Source: Paludibacteraceae bacterium
GTDB lineage: Bacteria > Bacteroidota > Bacteroidia > Bacteroidales > Paludibacteraceae
Length of the DNA stretch: 64,000 nucleotides
Direction of reading: 5' to 3'
Assembly (NCBI GenBank): GCA_017962085.1
Contig: JAGCWA010000013.1
Span: 1 to 64,000, forward strand
In this document: piece after piece, positions 46,045 to 55,618 of the stretch
Layout of the letters: each line of letters opens with the position of its first letter
Numbering within the stretch: position 1 is the stretch's first letter
Made by a program: the position numbers and the translations under genes
The notes under the pieces: generated by a model
What the model saw: the letters and a program-made list of their open reading frames with translations, nothing else
Told to the model about the DNA's origin: nothing
Databases searched by the model: none

Positions 46045-46887
46045 TTACTTAACTTGGATGACCAATTTCTTAGAAACTGACCAGAAAGTCTTGTAGTTAG
46101 TGATCTTCAAGATCAAGTTCTTGTCGTCACCTGGAGACTTAACCAAAGAGTATGAGTTAGTTGGGTGGTTAGTCAAGATGACAGCCTTCTTAGCGCCGAG
46201 AGGCAACTCCTTGAACTCACGGATATCAACTTTCGTGCAAAGGCTCTCGTTGATAGTAGCGCCTTGCAAGTTCTTCAAACCTTTCTCCTTCAAAGTCTTC
46301 TTGTTAGCCAAGAAGTAGTAAGCAGTGTTCAACTCCTCATCTTGCTGTTGGATAGCGGCCATGTTAGCGTTGTTAACCTCGTTGATAGAGTCTCTGATGG
46401 CAGCGATGCTGGCAACAGTGCTGTCCAAAGAAGCGATCTTGATGTTCTTCTCGTCCAACTGAGCCTTCAAGTCCTTGATGGTCTGCTCGCTGGCCTTCAA
46501 ATCCTTCTGCAAGCCGGCAACCAAGCCACGCAAGTAAGGGAGCTTGCCCTCAGCCTTCTTCAAAGCGTTCTCCATAGAGTCGAGCTTAGAACGGCTGTCT
46601 TGGAAAGCGCGGTGGATAGACTCGAAATCCTGTTGGATTTTTTGCTTGCTGTCAGCGTTAACACCCTCGGATTGAGCCTCGTCCAAGATACCCAACTCAG
46701 TTTGCTTAATGCTTCTCAAGTTAGATTGAACCTCAGTGATCAGAGCAAAATAGCTGTTCATCTTTTGCTCGTTCATGTCATTCACTTGTTGAAGTGAATC
46801 AACTTGTTGCGTCAAAGCGTCAATTTTGTCTTGGTTACAAGACACTGCGAATAATGCAACGAATGCACCTAAAACTACTTTTTTCAT
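46045..46887 (-). CDS. Coiled-coil lipoprotein of unknown function
   Basis: A 280-residue lipoprotein (Ala-Val-Ser-Cys, Cys about 17). Residues about 20-180 form long heptad-rich coiled coils (Ile-Asp-Ala-Leu-Thr-Gln-Gln-Val-Asp-Ser-Leu-Gln-Gln). The C-terminal 80 residues are a beta-rich domain ending Lys-Leu-Val-Ile-Gln-Val-Lys. Codon choice looks like that of a highly expressed gene (uniform use of a few codons, as in gapA), and the terminator is strong. It is likely an abundant envelope protein, comparable in form but not in sequence to Lpp-type linkers. Confidence 0.75.
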   Translation of the reverse strand: MKKVVLGAFVALFAVSCNQDKIDALTQQVDSLQQVNDMNEQKMNSYFALITEVQSNLRSIKQTELGILDEAQSEGVNADSKQKIQQDFESIHRAFQDSRSKLDSMENALKKAEGKLPYLRGLVAGLQKDLKASEQTIKDLKAQLDEKNIKIASLDSTVASIAAIRDSINEVNNANMAAIQQQDEELNTAYYFLANKKTLKEKGLKNLQGATINESLCTKVDIREFKELPLGAKKAVILTNHPTNSYSLVKSPGDDKNLILKITNYKTFWSVSKKLVIQVK

Positions 46888-46921
46888 TTTGTCTTAAATT
46901 TAAATTTATAATAAAAAATAA

Positions 46922-47638
46922 TTACTCTTCAACATTCACTTTTTTGTCACTCTTATCGTTAGGCTTACCAGCCAGTACAATCACAATCTCTCCCTTGGGG
47001 TCGTGTTCCTTGAAATAGTCCCGTACCTCCTCGACCGTGCCTCGGACTGTCTGTTCGTGCACCTTGGATATCTCTCGGGAGACCGACACTCGGCGGTGCG
47101 GCCCCATCACTTCCACTAATTGTTCCAACGTCTTTACCAGACGAAAAGGAGACTCATATACAATCATTGTCCGATGCTCCTCCGCCAACTCCTTTAATTT
47201 GGTCTGCCTACCCTTCTTCTGAGGCAAAAAGCCCTCAAAACAGAAACGATCGTTCGGCAAACCTGAATTGACCAAGGCCGGCACAAAGGCCGTCGGACCT
47301 GGCAAGCATTCCACCTCAATGTCCGCCTCCACGCATGCGCGCACCAGCAGAAACCCAGGATCGGAAATCGCGGGCGTACCCGCATCAGAGACTAATGCTA
47401 TCGTCTCGCCACCCTTCAATCGTTCAACCACCGAATCTGTCGTCTGGTGCTCGTTGAACTTATGGTGGGAAAGCATCTTCTTCTCTATTTCAAAATGCTT
47501 GAGCAACACGCTTGTTGTCCTAGTATCTTCCGCGAGGATCAGGTCCACTTCCTTCAATATTCTGACCGCCCTCAACGTCATGTCCTCCAAGTTACCCACA
47601 GGAGTAGGCACCACATAAAGTTTACCCACACTCTTCAT
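46922..47638 (-). CDS. rsmI: 16S rRNA (cytidine-1402-2'-O)-methyltransferase
   Basis: A 238-residue tetrapyrrole-methylase-fold enzyme that 2'-O-methylates C1402 in the ribosomal decoding centre. Motifs: Val-Val-Pro-Thr-Pro-Val-Gly-Asn-Leu-Glu-Asp near the start, Glu-Asp-Thr-Arg near 36, Val-Ser-Asp-Ala-Gly-Thr-Pro-Ala-Ile-Ser-Asp-Pro-Gly near 81 and Glu-Ser-Pro-Phe-Arg near 158. It is shorter than the Escherichia coli enzyme because it lacks the C-terminal tail. Start overlaps the preceding gene's stop (ATGA). Confidence 0.93.
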   Translation of the reverse strand: MKSVGKLYVVPTPVGNLEDMTLRAVRILKEVDLILAEDTRTTSVLLKHFEIEKKMLSHHKFNEHQTTDSVVERLKGGETIALVSDAGTPAISDPGFLLVRACVEADIEVECLPGPTAFVPALVNSGLPNDRFCFEGFLPQKKGRQTKLKELAEEHRTMIVYESPFRLVKTLEQLVEVMGPHRRVSVSREISKVHEQTVRGTVEEVRDYFKEHDPKGEIVIVLAGKPNDKSDKKVNVEE

Positions 47639-48423
47639 GAAAATCTGTCCTCCAACAATCTCATGAAATCCGATACGGCCTCATCCGCCTCGTCCCACGA
47701 GAAATTCCACTTCACGTAATCCTTCGCCTCCTGTAATGTGTCCATGGCATCCAACGCCGCTATGGTCGTCGACATCAACTCGGAATCCCCACCGAACAAC
47801 TCGTTCTGATAACGAATGCGGTCGTTCAATGTGATCGCTTTCTTGATCGACTGGACAAAACGGCTCTCTACTCGCTTCGAAGACCGATTGGCATCCAAAA
47901 CCGTACGGACACTGCCCCCCTCCGGGACATGGGTCCTCACCTCCGGACGAACGACCACATTGCGCTTCCCCTTTGGTGATTCTGTGTTATTTTTTTCAGG
48001 CACCGCCTCCTCTTTCGGAGAAGATGATTTCGCTGATTGATATTCAATTTTCACCACATCTTCCAGAGGTTTTCTCTCCTCGACCTTCGCCTTCGGAACT
48101 TCGTGAACTGGCTCCTCCTCTTTCTCGACAACTCTTACCTCCTCTTTCGGAACCTCCACCTTCGGATTAACCGCAGGCTGACTGACGACTGGCTCAACCA
48201 CGCGAGCCTCAGACTGAACCGGCGCATCCACCACCCGGGAAGATGCTTCCTCTTTCTGACATGACTCCAGCATCTCAATCCTCTGTAATAACGAAGTTGC
48301 CTTCCCCTTCGCCAAGCTTAACACGGACGCCGGGACGTTAACCATCTCCGACATTCCGCTGCATAATAGCGAAAGTTCCTTCACATCTTCTGATATTAGA
48401 CTCATCAAATCCTTACTGTCCAT
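47635..48423 (-). CDS. Hypothetical protein with acidic low-complexity centre
   Basis: A 262-residue protein. Residues 1-60 are helical (Leu-Ser-Leu-Leu-Cys-Ser-Gly-Met), about 65-165 are a Glu/Val/Lys/Pro-rich disordered stretch, and about 185-262 form a conserved helical end with Phe-Val-Gln-Ser-Ile-Lys-Lys-Ala-Ile-Thr-Leu-Asn-Asp-Arg and Phe-Gly-Gly-Asp. The end part recurs in Bacteroidales proteins of no known role. Translationally coupled to rsmI. Confidence 0.7.
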   Translation of the reverse strand: MDSKDLMSLISEDVKELSLLCSGMSEMVNVPASVLSLAKGKATSLLQRIEMLESCQKEEASSRVVDAPVQSEARVVEPVVSQPAVNPKVEVPKEEVRVVEKEEEPVHEVPKAKVEERKPLEDVVKIEYQSAKSSSPKEEAVPEKNNTESPKGKRNVVVRPEVRTHVPEGGSVRTVLDANRSSKRVESRFVQSIKKAITLNDRIRYQNELFGGDSELMSTTIAALDAMDTLQEAKDYVKWNFSWDEADEAVSDFMRLLEDRFS

Positions 48424-51921: not shown

Positions 51922-52530
51922 TCACTTGCCCAAAAGGTTCATAAACTCCTCGCGGGTCTTGGCGGTGTTGAACGCGCCTGTGAAGTCGGACGTGGTGGTG
52001 ATGGAATGCATCTTCTCCACACCACGCATCTGCATGCACATGTGCTGCGCCTCGATGACGACCATAACACCCATTGGATTCAACGTCTCCTGGATACAAT
52101 CCTTGATTTGAGTGGTGAGACGCTCTTGGATCTGCAAACGGCGGGAGAGAATCTCCACGACACGGGCGATCTTGCTCAGTCCGGTTATCTTCCTGTCAGG
52201 TATATATGCCACATGCGCCTTGCCGAAGAAAGGCAACAGGTGATGTTCGCACAAGGAATAGAAGTCGATATCCTTCACGATGACCATCTGTTGGTAATCC
52301 TCCTCGAACACAGCGGATTCCAAAACCTCACGAGGGTCTATCTTATAACCATAGGTCATGAACTGCATAGCTTTAGCGACACGTTCAGGGGTCTTCTTCA
52401 AACCTTCGCGGTTCACATCCTCTCCGAGCAGAGTGATTGCTTCCGCATACAGGGGAGCCAATTTCTCCGTAAGGCTCTTACTTGGGTACTTGGCGATATC
52501 CCAAGGCTTCATTTGCAAATCGTCGTTCAT
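51922..52530 (-). CDS. folE: GTP cyclohydrolase I
   Basis: A 202-residue FolE, which converts GTP to dihydroneopterin triphosphate for folate synthesis. The zinc motif Cys94-Glu-His96-His97 is present, with the second Cys in Gln-His-Met-Cys-Met near residue 165, and Thr-Pro-Glu-Arg-Val-Ala-Lys-Ala near 47. The start at 52530 (Met-Asn-Asp-Asp-Leu) is preferred; the longer frame adds an unrelated Lys-rich tail that overlaps the upstream gene. Confidence 0.95.
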
Positions 52531-52537
52531 TTTCTTT

Positions 52538-53041
52538 TTACTTTTCGAGACGGACATCACGGGCCTCATCATCGACCACGAATACCTCTCCTGTCATTTC
52601 CGGGAATTCGGACAATATATTTTGGGCAAACACCATCGCCTCCGTCTGCACGCGGAAATCGCCTAAACGTAGCTTCCAAAATGGGGAAGAAAAGGTGAGG
52701 TAGGATGTGACATTTGGATATTTCGCCTTTATCTTCTTTTCGCGCTCTAATGCCTCCACCTTAGACTTCTTGGGAAGGTTACCCATATAGACCTGGACAC
52801 GATAACCAGAAAAAGTCACATAGGTTTTTTCATCATTGACGGAGAGCTTCTTCCGCATCAAAGACTTCATCTTAGGGTCTTGCTTTATCACCACCTTCCC
52901 ACTCCCCGCAGGGGTCTTGGACAATGTCTCGAACACATCCGTATAAGGCTTCTTATTCGAGGATTTGGTCGTCTGGGCGCAAAGAGATAAGCTCAAACCA
53001 CAAGCGGCTGTCAAAAGAAGAATTTTATGCCACATATACAT
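52538..53041 (-). CDS. Secreted SPOR-domain protein
   Basis: A 167-residue exported protein (signal ending SLCAQ). Residues about 85-160 are SPOR-like: Gly-Tyr-Arg-Val-Gln-Val-Tyr-Met-Gly, then Trp-Lys-Leu-Arg-Leu-Gly-Asp-Phe-Arg. SPOR domains bind septal peptidoglycan. The stop lies 7 bases before the folE start, so they are cotranscribed. Confidence 0.8.
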
Positions 53042-53104
53042 TCAATTTAAATCCAGCACAAAAATACATAATCTTATTCAAAAACGCAAAAACAATAAAA
53101 GCAT

Positions 53105-53427
53105 ACTCCCTCTTCCACCCCCTCCATTCCGTCTCTTCCCCGGGGATTCCATCCCCGCCCCTCCCTTTCTCATTTCCTCATTTCCCTACGTTCCGTCCTT
53201 TCCGCGGGGATTCCATCCCCCCGTCCCTTCCCCCGCCCTCCTTATCTCTCCACTCCTTCTCGTCTCTTCCTCATTCCCTCCCCCCGTTCCGTCCTTTCAT
53301 CGGGGATTCCATCCCCGCCTCCTTATCTCTCCCCCCCCTCCCTCCCCAAAAAGTTCCATCTCCTCCCCCCCCGCCTGAAAAAAAATCACTATCTTTGTTC
53401 CGTTAATTCAGCGGGAATTCCATTCCC
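53105..53427. repeat. REP-like hairpin repeats, family B, upstream block in polypyrimidine tract
   Basis: Three copies of a unit made of GTTCCGTC or ATTCCGTC, a short pyrimidine run, then the palindrome GGGGATTCCATCCCC (53142-53156, 53206-53220, 53302-53316), and a variant GGGAATTCCATTCCC at 53413-53427. Apart from the palindromes the plus strand is almost all C and T from 53105 to 53375. The variant copy lies between the -7 box and the ATG of the transposase-like gene. No gene is present. Confidence 0.88.
53390..53397 (+). promoter_or_regulatory. -7 box of the RAYT-like fusion gene
   Basis: TATCTTTG matches TAnnTTTG. Transcription would start near 53405, placing the variant hairpin 53413-53427 in the mRNA leader, 18 bases before the ATG. 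Confidence 0.55.
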
Positions 53428-53445
53428 GCCCAAACCACAATAACA

Positions 53446-54453
53446 ATGGAAAAAGAAACCTTCTCCTGGCTACAACCAGGTGCCTGGCGCAAGCCATGCA
53501 TAGTACACATAACAATGGCCGCCAAAGACAGACAACCCCTCTTTGGCACCCTCTCCCACAACGGATCCAATGCCTACGTAGAGAAGACTCCTCTCGGCTG
53601 GATACTAGTCAACCAACAAAAGAAAATGCTTACACTATGTCCCGAAATCAAAATCCTAGCGGACAAGGTCATGCCCGACCATCACCACATGGTGCTTCAA
53701 GTGATGCGGAGCATGCGACGCAGCGTCAAAGAAGTGGTGCGCGGATACATGCAGGGTTGCAAAGCGGAAGCCCGAAAACTCGGATTCCAAGGAAACATTT
53801 ACGACGATGTCCCTTTTTACCGTGTTCTCACACACAAAGGGCAATTACGTTCAATGATTAATTACGTGTACGCCAACGCAGAACGTGCCTGGCAACGAAA
53901 ACAAAACCCATTCCTCTTCCAAATGCACCGTCAAACCAATGTCTGCGGATTAACCTTCACATCGCTAGGCAACCATTTCCTACTCGACTGGGTGGACCGC
54001 CAAAGAATCGAGGTGTCACGAAATGCAAACGCAGAATACATAGAACAGCTATTACAACATGCGCTGACAGCCGCACAAAACGGTGCGATCACATACACTG
54101 CCGCCATTAGCAAAGGCGAACAAACCATCGCCCGCAACCTGCGGGAACAGGGTTTCCCTCTAGTTATACTTCTCAACGATGGATTCCCAGAGGCAGGATC
54201 GCCTCACGAAAAATACTACAAACCAGGCGGTGTATATTTCGAGGCGTGCGCCAAAGGTCATCTTTTACTCCTAGAACCAACCGAGCAAACCTTCACCATA
54301 CCCTCAGTTGCTACAAGCACATTAGCAACACTTCAACGCAAAGCAAAAGAGAAACACCTAACATATTCCCCCATTTCCACATCATCCCAACGCTACCGCT
54401 TCGTAGCCCTCAACGAAATCGCCCGAATACTATGCAACCAACCAACAGATTAA
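53446..54453 (+). CDS. RAYT-like HUH transposase fused to a Rossmann-like domain
   Basis: A 335-residue two-domain protein. Residues about 15-165 form a Y1/HUH domain of REP-associated type: Val-His-Ile-Thr-Met-Ala-Ala-Lys-Asp-Arg, Cys-Pro-Glu-Ile, the HUH motif Asp-His79-His-His81 after Met-Pro, a basic helix (Met-Arg-Arg-Ser-Val-Lys-Glu-Val-Val), and the likely nucleophile Tyr140 in Ile-Asn-Tyr-Val-Tyr-Ala-Asn. Residues about 195-290 are different: Ile-Ser-Lys-Gly-Glu-Gln-Thr-Ile-Ala, Phe-Pro-Leu-Val-Ile-Leu, Lys-Pro-Gly-Gly and Gly-His-Leu-Leu-Leu-Leu-Glu-Pro, which recall the DprA/LOG nucleotide-binding superfamily. Family-B hairpins stand on both sides. Homologues probably occur in other Bacteroidales, but I know of no function for the second domain. 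It may be a domesticated enzyme that maintains the REP repeats. Confidence 0.8.
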   Translation: MEKETFSWLQPGAWRKPCIVHITMAAKDRQPLFGTLSHNGSNAYVEKTPLGWILVNQQKKMLTLCPEIKILADKVMPDHHHMVLQVMRSMRRSVKEVVRGYMQGCKAEARKLGFQGNIYDDVPFYRVLTHKGQLRSMINYVYANAERAWQRKQNPFLFQMHRQTNVCGLTFTSLGNHFLLDWVDRQRIEVSRNANAEYIEQLLQHALTAAQNGAITYTAAISKGEQTIARNLREQGFPLVILLNDGFPEAGSPHEKYYKPGGVYFEACAKGHLLLLEPTEQTFTIPSVATSTLATLQRKAKEKHLTYSPISTSSQRYRFVALNEIARILCNQPTD

Positions 54454-54640
54454 AACACCCCATTCTCCGCACCTTCCCCTCTCTTCCTCATTCTCCAACC
54501 CGTTCCGTCCCTTCCTTATCCCCCACATGTTCCGTCCCTTCCCCGGGGATTCCATCCCCGCCTCTCATCCTCGTTCCTATCTCCGTCCCTCATCTCCTCA
54601 CCTTCCCCGACTCCGTCCTTTCAAACCGCGCCACAAACTC
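54454..54640. repeat. REP-like hairpin repeats, family B, downstream block
   Basis: One full unit with GGGGATTCCATCCCC at 54545-54559, preceded by GTTCCGTCCC, and solitary heads GTTCCGTCCC at about 54502 and CTCCGTCC at about 54582 and 54611 without hairpins. The plus strand is again mostly pyrimidine. The last part overlaps the end of the menE-like gene. Confidence 0.75.
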
Positions 54641-55618
54641 CACCCTCTTAGGCATCTCATACGTAGAAAGGCATTCCGACATCCGTCTCAGCAACCCGTC
54701 TGTAGCAAAGGGCTCCGACTCAATCCGCAACACCACACGCTGCCCGAACTTCTCATCCGCCTCGGAGGTGAAGTAGAACGGCACCTCCAGCAAATCTTCG
54801 ACCTTCTTCTCCATCTTTTCAGGGAAGACCTTCACTCCGCCGGTGTTGATCACGTTGTCCCACCGTCCTAACCAAGAAAAGGAGCGGTCGGAATGGAGGC
54901 GCACCACATCATTGGTGACAAATGGAGAGCCTGCGAGGTAATCGGCATGAATGACGAGGCATTCCCGCTCATCGACGGAAAAGCGTACATCCGGCAAGGC
55001 TTGGTACAAGGGTTCCTTGCCCGCCTTCAAAGGGGAAAGGGCCACGTGGGATACCGTCTCTGTCATACCATAGGAGACGTAAGACTTCACCGACAACGTA
55101 TCTAACCACTCGACCTCGGATTGTTGGATCGGACCGCCTCCGACAAGGAGATGACGGACCCCCGCCATGCGTTCCTCCCCCTCCCCGCTCACGCGCAGGG
55201 CATGCACCTGCATCGGAACCATGGAGACGAGGTCGAATCGTCCTGCCACACGAGGCATCGAGGTAGCTGGCTCCACATAGAGGTTCAATCCACCCACCAA
55301 GGCTCGTACCACCATCATCTTCCCTGCGATATAATTGGCAGACAGGCATAGCAGAATGGAATCCCCTCGCTTCAGTCCAAAGAAGGCATTGGTACGACGG
55401 GCGGACTCGAACATGGATCGCTTGGAGAGCTCTATCCGCTTCGGTTCGCCCGTGGAGCCGGAGGTGTGTCCCACAACGAAATCACGGTCGTCCCACCAAG
55501 CCGACAGGAAATCAGCCAGCGCCTCATCGCAGCCGGGGATGGCGAGCACCTTGCCCCTATCCCGCATGTCGTCCTCCGTCAAGAGAGTATCGTTTATGTT
55601 CAACGTCATCATATTCAA
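54590..55618 (-). CDS. menE: O-succinylbenzoate-CoA ligase-like AMP-binding enzyme
   Basis: A 342-residue adenylate-forming enzyme, shorter than typical MenE (about 450) but of the length usual in Bacteroidales. Motifs: His-Thr-Ser-Gly-Ser-Thr-Gly-Glu-Pro-Lys near residue 50, Ser-Tyr-Gly-Met-Thr-Glu-Thr near 187, Asn-Thr-Gly-Gly-Val-Lys-Val near 262, and the catalytic Lys in Glu-Ser-Gly-Lys-Val-Arg at the very end. It would activate o-succinylbenzoate in menaquinone synthesis; the other men genes are outside the window. The stop codon falls in the family-B pyrimidine tract. Confidence 0.82.
   Translation of the reverse strand: MNMMTLNINDTLLTEDDMRDRGKVLAIPGCDEALADFLSAWWDDRDFVVGHTSGSTGEPKRIELSKRSMFESARRTNAFFGLKRGDSILLCLSANYIAGKMMVVRALVGGLNLYVEPATSMPRVAGRFDLVSMVPMQVHALRVSGEGEERMAGVRHLLVGGGPIQQSEVEWLDTLSVKSYVSYGMTETVSHVALSPLKAGKEPLYQALPDVRFSVDERECLVIHADYLAGSPFVTNDVVRLHSDRSFSWLGRWDNVINTGGVKVFPEKMEKKVEDLLEVPFYFTSEADEKFGQRVVLRIESEPFATDGLLRRMSECLSTYEMPKRVEFVARFERTESGKVRR

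Follow-up and report, generated by a model that had tools for sequence, protein, structure and literature searches.

We consider it on balance probable that the gene at 53446..54453 (forward strand) of the 64,000-nucleotide stretch of gut-bacterial DNA analyzed here (the window) belongs to a low-copy mobile element of the REPtron kind, made up of one HUH tyrosine transposase gene, which has a novel DprA-like domain, together with hairpin units of its own for recognition. Enzyme gene and hairpins are tied in cis, covary across bacterial families and have seemingly spread horizontally, with a DNA-recombination-type domain fused to the enzyme. It appears that the package has moved from one ruminant-gut bacterium to another, and this offers a new angle on the origin of bacterial hairpin repeats. 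REP repeats are common in bacteria and their mode of spread is poorly understood, according to the abstract of PMC8266576.

The gene is an intact reading frame of 335 amino acids. Reading frame, fold, conservation and selection point to an HUH Y1 transposase domain (residues ~1–155) and a DprA-like Rossmann domain (residues ~160–335). On one side of it lie folE and a small gene without a Pfam match, which we take to be SPOR-like, and on the other an AMP-binding gene, presumably menE-like, followed by GAPDH; the named neighbors in the window are metabolic genes. Both flanks, 53071..53432 (+) with the upstream units and 54422..54669 (+) with the downstream unit, are ~80% pyrimidine and are the sole parts of the 64 kb to exceed 75% in 200-nt windows. 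The gene is under purifying selection in both domains, with a mean dN/dS of 0.125 over ten pairs among five orthologues (HUH part 0.093, second domain 0.147). Close copies occur once per genome, and a few relatives are truncated or frame-broken. The source genome also holds a distant paralogue of 382 amino acids (L087, contig 8 of G000, 46599–47717), and inspection by eye found no matching hairpin in the 360 nt upstream of it or the 300 nt downstream; paralogues of this type are present in several sister genomes as well.

Fold matches, a sub-cut-off NCBIfam match and invariant columns support the assignment of the N-terminal part of the protein (53446..53910, +) as a REP-associated-type HUH transposase domain, with the motif PDHHH (H79, H81) and residues Y140, N144 and R147. 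The model of the window protein retrieves the ISDra2 and IS608 TnpA transposases in Foldseek, with E-values from 1e-5, and 4er8, a RAYT bound to its own REP hairpin, at 2.8e-5. M76, P77, D78, H79, H81, Y140, N144 and R147 are among the residues invariant in 27 aligned members, window protein included, in agreement with a sequence-only reading of the window that had proposed a REP-associated HUH domain with His79/His81 and a probable Tyr140. The NCBIfam model REP_Tyr_transpos matches the window protein with an E-value of 3e-4 and 20.6 bits, below the model cut-off of 80, and is matched by all 27 members at E ≤ 1 (best 2.4e-12). The Pfam Y1_Tnp match to the window protein is sub-threshold, and PHROGs yields weak matches to one transposase family in nine of the 27 members. 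Within the class 2 motif Y-x-x-x-N-P, N144 is invariant and the last position is P in most of the wider family and A in the window's clade. The W motif (W[QE]) is missing from that clade; among the wider members, 5 of 27 (L098, L108, L109, L111 and L112) have WE and the others mostly F.

The second domain (53911..54450, +) is Rossmann-like and resembles the first half of DprA, as judged from AlphaFold2, Foldseek, a weak collinear profile match and conservation. The top AlphaFold2 model, built from 23 sequences, has a mean pLDDT of 87.7 and a pTM of 0.62, and the other four models score between 85.8 and 65.9, so that how the two domains sit relative to each other is uncertain. Foldseek lists DprA entries from rank 32 on, after the HUH transposases. 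The H. pylori DprA entries have E-values of 2.6e-3 to 1.4e-2, probabilities of 0.98–1.00 and TM-scores by target length of 0.36–0.43; the output carries no query range, and we infer that the transposases fall on the first domain and DprA on the second. A profile comparison with Bacteroidales DprA (hhalign) is weak (E 0.006, probability 6%) and spans the second domain, in which the GxR, SGxAxGID, VLGxGxxxYP, GGLxTE and RN segments follow in the same order over ~140 core columns. Pfam DNA_processg_A (DprA) does not match the protein. ShosA (8zva, 5e-5), which we assume to be akin to DprA, is also listed, with a weak alignment (rmsd 19.7 over 213 columns). Invariant residues of this domain in the 27 members include I221, S222, E225, P260, G271, L274 and N323. 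Taken together, the predicted structure and the fold search give moderate support to a second domain that is DprA-like at the fold level, close to the DprA/LOG type proposed earlier, and show a separate Rossmann-like domain rather than an ordinary extension of the HUH domain. We found no paper in the open-access literature on a RAYT or HUH transposase fused to a DprA-like or Rossmann domain.

Five 33-nt hairpin units accompany the gene, all on the forward strand. The start unit (53397..53429), supported by unit search, alignment, covariation and folding, ends 17 nt before the ATG, and the unit search places three flanking units farther upstream (53126..53158, 53190..53222 and 53286..53318) and one downstream (54529..54561), the layout of four repeats before the gene and one after that had been read from the sequence. 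A unit consists of a head, GTYCCGTY, and a hairpin at a fixed distance from it, the head lying several nucleotides from the stem; a GTAG-like tetranucleotide at the hairpin foot is absent, and the head is found instead. Four of the five units contain GGGGATTCCATCCCC and the gene-adjacent one GCGGGAATTCCATTCCCGC, with the stem GGAAT in the start unit and GGGAT in the others; 25 units taken from five genomes give the consensus GTTCCGTCCCTTCnGCGGGAATTCCATTCCCGC. In DNA folding each of the five forms a hairpin on its own; four are unmatched by any of 200 shuffles, and ten of 200 shuffles fold as well as the unit at 53190. Rfam gives no match within 52500–55000. The sequence TATCTTTG (53390..53397, +), also present in L008–L010, fits TAnnTTTG, which we take to be the Bacteroidales −7 promoter motif, and the start unit begins with its final base (53397). 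At locus L011 (5584–5985), CTACCTTTG precedes several array copies and the start unit, and from this arrangement the array copies there may carry their own promoter-like element.

We found 41 relatives in species genomes, which according to the genome records come mostly from ruminant guts. A pattern of head plus hairpin with an AT-NNN-AT apex was scanned over 39 loci, namely the window and 38 relatives, leaving out L033 and L037 (gene at a contig edge) and L044 (no clear start). The scan returned 104 units, against 1, 3, 3, 5 and 3 in five block-shuffled controls, an excess that chance does not explain, and 102 of the 104 lie within 500 nt of the gene. At least one unit is present in 33 of the 39 loci and none was found in six; L024 and L032 have hairpins without the head. 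We chose 43 units from the window's genus, from the Prevotella group (loci whose records are named Prevotella, Prevotellaceae, Bacteroidaceae or Bacteroidales and which share one layout) and from other bacteria, and these align without gaps over 33 columns; their 96% pairing is biased because the units were preselected by a stem filter. Changes on both sides occur in five of seven pairs, with 65 both-side cells against 19.6 ± 5.6 after shuffling (0 of 500) and a covariation score of 0.559 against 0.223 (0 of 500), shuffle counts that are not probabilities because the aligned sequences are related. Two of the five measures are unremarkable (pairs with both-side changes, 45 of 500; pair types, 333 of 500). 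Restricting the test to the 25 units of the genus leaves the score exceptional (0 of 500) and the pair count (156 of 500) and the pair types (417 of 500) unremarkable. The results support the conclusion that the hairpin family goes with the gene across bacterial families, with strong compensatory changes. The gene's own hairpin repeat family, postulated from the window alone, thus recurs at the gene in relatives of other families and covaries there. Three close relatives, L012, L014 and L016 (72–73% identity), possibly lie outside Bacteroidales; the L016 gene has a PARG-like gene on one side and the gene pair of a two-subunit glycine dehydrogenase on the other.

The units before the gene differ from the others in the Prevotella group. 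In 22 of its loci the unit before the start codon has the stem xAAAT in 20 of 20 cases, in gene sense, and the remaining units have xGGAT in 46 of 49 and lie on the opposite strand in 46 of 49, where the AT of the stem is demanded by the scan itself and some loci are near copies of one another. L012, L013, L014 and L016 each have just two units, a single one ahead of the gene and an inverted one at its end. The units found in the window's genus all face the same direction, unlike the inverted start and flank units of the Prevotella group. In the Prevotella group, 1–4 nt separate the end of the start-unit hairpin from the ATG at 17 of 23 loci; in the window's genus the gap is 17 nt at four of five loci and 20 nt in L011. 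Start and flank units of the Prevotella group, differing in stem and orientation, look like two kinds of element end.

The units are largely confined to the gene. In the source genome, searches with the exact palindrome and with unit model R1 found no unit away from the HUH gene, and the palindrome occurs four times genome-wide, all at the window gene. The sequence-only reading had proposed a REP system and named a genome-wide count of the unit as a check; every unit found in this genome adjoins the gene, and a dispersed REP population there was rejected as far as the searches reach. Across 16 genomes of the genus, R1 gives 36 matches in six genomes and none in the other ten; in the five genomes that have a close orthologue every match (34 of 34) is at the gene, and the remaining two are at a contig end beside folE in G011. 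With model R2, 59 of 62 matches at E < 1e-3 in 21 genomes lie within ~550 nt of the gene, the exceptions being two in G065 and one in G064, and the genome of L032 has no R2 match. Because units of these loci went into both models, matches at the gene arise partly by construction and only absence elsewhere is informative; the best 150 first-look candidates were scored per genome, and weak distant copies could escape. The 39 weaker R2 matches (1e-3 to 0.5) divide into 16 close to the gene and 23 away from it (seven in G065, six in G062, three each in G061 and G077, and four single), and those outside G065 are most likely chance. A unit-model match in a gltD-like frame in G065 and G078, a reading that appears to us to be of normal length, was judged ordinary coding sequence, and weak matches in contig 49 of G062 look like repeated coding sequence.

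The place of the gene is kept within the genus and changes beyond it. All five loci of the window's genus share the same gene neighbors. Among 15 Prevotella-group genomes, a neighbor within 5 kb of the HUH gene is common to one of 105 pairs, against 68 of 105 for the dprA control, some loci being shortened by contig ends. The sequence-only reading had proposed a vertically kept, non-selfish system; synteny upholds the vertical part within the genus and speaks against it between species, so that a purely vertical and non-selfish system is not supported. The sister genomes G009 and G015 have no close orthologue and no units, yet the region is rearranged in them too: G009 has folE, a small gene, a TonB-receptor-like gene (by eye) and menE, without the HUH gene or units, and G015 departs from the shared sequence at about the point where the array begins. 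Neither a cleavage or target site nor a target duplication or clean empty site turned up at the loci compared, sisters G009 and G015 included. In 14 Prevotella-group genomes (G064 was dropped for its partial dprA match) the protein is 83.3% identical, against 53.9% for DprA, and is the more similar in 91 of 91 pairs, with a rank correlation of −0.03; the window protein is 69.0% identical to those of the same 14 genomes, against 38.5% for DprA, the sole control gene, whose evolution may be more rapid than that of many core genes. Of 393 genomes sampled from the order, 17 have a relative at E ≤ 1e-20, and so do 10 of 207 genera, counting that of the window. The scattered distribution, the changes of location and the excess similarity together make it very likely that the gene spreads horizontally. 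No plasmid, phage or viral-contig copies were found, and none of the 68 pattern matches of the viral scan is a relative.

According to PMC8266576, the enzymes known from this class work on a single strand of the hairpin in its folded form, and a 5′ tetranucleotide may guide them. By analogy with these enzymes, the HUH domain here would bind the folded unit on single-stranded DNA, with the head as guide and the stem and loop as shape; Y140 would cut and the HUH domain would join the ends, while the DprA-like domain would hold or pair single-stranded DNA beside the active site. A single strand with the start unit at one end and a flanking unit at the other would be excised and inserted again at another place, and rarely a lone unit may be copied elsewhere. 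Through the hairpin directly ahead of the start codon, the protein probably restrains its own expression as well. Such a simple excision scheme does not explain why start and flank units are direct in the window's genus and inverted in the Prevotella group. With its compact protein and 33-nt substrate pair, the system is suited to in vitro work.

The closeness of the start hairpin to the ATG (1–4 nt in 17 of 23 Prevotella-group loci, 17 nt in four of five of the genus) also fits units that are mainly control sites, at which the protein, or a ribosome or RNase, acts on a hairpin at the 5′ end of the mRNA or gene and sets the protein's level, the enzyme having a host task unrelated to moving. 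The AT-rich type of start stem in 20 of 20 Prevotella-group units, purifying selection on both domains, the single close copy per genome and vertical descent within the genus agree with this, but it leaves unexplained the flanking arrays on both sides and their opposite orientation, the change of place and the excess similarity between species, and we regard it as unlikely, if worth keeping in view. A good deal less probable is that the C-terminal domain senses a nucleotide or other signal, presumably as a SLOG-type domain, in a defense or stress switch with the HUH domain as effector: ShosA is among the Foldseek matches and the domain has invariant residues, yet the ShosA superposition is poor, PADLOC gives no convincing match (three families, one member each, best 0.007) and the window's named neighbors are metabolic.

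Slightly less probable again is the REP system first proposed for the window, in which the enzyme descends vertically and its repeats populate the whole genome. The protein class, the conserved hairpins and the constant place within the genus would suit it, but no unit was found off the gene in the source genome and few in the other 20 genomes searched, and the place of the gene changes between species. A decayed transposase with leftover tandem repeats might account for the single close copy per genome and for the few truncated or frame-broken relatives; with the gene intact, dN/dS at about 0.1 and hairpins that covary across families, we hold this to be very improbable.

The low-copy mobile element that we favor shares with RAYT/TnpA-REP and its REPtron (class 2 of Quentin 2018) an HUH domain with Y-x-x-x-N, low copy number and a gene flanked by 5′-headed hairpins. 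It differs in its 335-residue protein with a DprA-like domain, in the head GTYCCGTY set apart from the stem where class 2 has GTAG at the stem foot, in the missing W motif of the window's clade, and in units that are confined to the gene in nearly all genomes searched, with G065 as the exception. PMC6006769 distinguishes 12 subclasses, and its main text mentions neither DprA nor Rossmann. Subclass 2.6, as described there, is alike in phylum (Bacteroidetes) and in its “atypical secondary structures”, but has a median of 179 amino acids, no Rossmann domain in the description and hairpin copies elsewhere in the genome. IS200/IS605 TnpA (IS608, ISDra2) shares the fold, the catalytic residues and hairpins at the presumed ends; here these putative ends are 33-nt units in arrays, there is no expansion to many copies, and the DprA-like domain is added. 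DprA/Smf probably shares the Rossmann-like core, and has the collinear segments of the weak profile match, which covers only ~140 core columns, and differs by the lack of a sequence-level family match and by the fusion to HUH. CGTC-tagged REPs and Rickettsia palindromic elements came into consideration since some heads hold CGTC, and G065 has copies inside reading frames. The definition of CGTC REPs in PMC3733652 calls for a CGTC end motif, AT pairs in the first and second stem positions and a tail that is mostly CCA, and the same source reports this large hairpin class to be without a dedicated transposase. Here an enzyme gene lies among the units, the AT pairs are at the loop end and not at the base, and the head is not at the stem foot; membership was rejected on this stem layout.

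Genome G065, that of locus L021, carries 15 dispersed look-alike units GTYCCGTCTNTTNNNGGGGATTNNNAATCCCCG (L162–L176) with at most three mismatches, against none in 15 other genomes and none with the reversed pattern. All 15 lie within long open frames (the longest of six frames, 217–1011 amino acids). Twelve are in sense orientation (chance 0.018) and in one shared phase, encoding VPSxxGDLQSP-like peptides in unrelated proteins; the shared phase has a chance of 6e-6, given equal phases and independent copies, and is not explained by stops since the sense phases are open in 14, 14 and 9 of the 15. Solved relatives of TcdA have a 14-residue gap over the G065 unit, the only clear surplus among the proteins compared. 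Methionyl-tRNA formyltransferase shows a scattered surplus against its solved relatives, and 3-dehydroquinate synthase no net surplus against 3zok (297 vs 301 residues), with 10 of 16 best stretches starting at residues 54–65, at or just behind the unit at 48–58. Fragment searches with dehydroquinate synthase and a third G065 protein found nothing. Head and hairpin position equal those of the gene's own units and the apex differs by one base pair, a likeness that alone ties these copies to the enzyme, and single units may rarely be copied elsewhere. More speculatively, and in our view doubtful, the gene could represent a new class of single-stranded DNA transposase with a built-in DprA-type holding domain and two distinct hairpin ends (start and flank), whose unit can leave the locus and settle in host genes as an in-frame insert of 11 codons, G065 being the case in point; if true, one enzyme family would carry itself between species and write short peptides into proteins.

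A further relative, L046 (5950–7143), has in-frame tandem repeats (TQMPKGG-like) inserted between the HUH motif and the Tyr region. Genome G024 holds at least five paralogues (L079–L083), and GCGGNAATNNNATTNCCGC hairpins occur there at 11 places, four of which are beside these paralogue genes.
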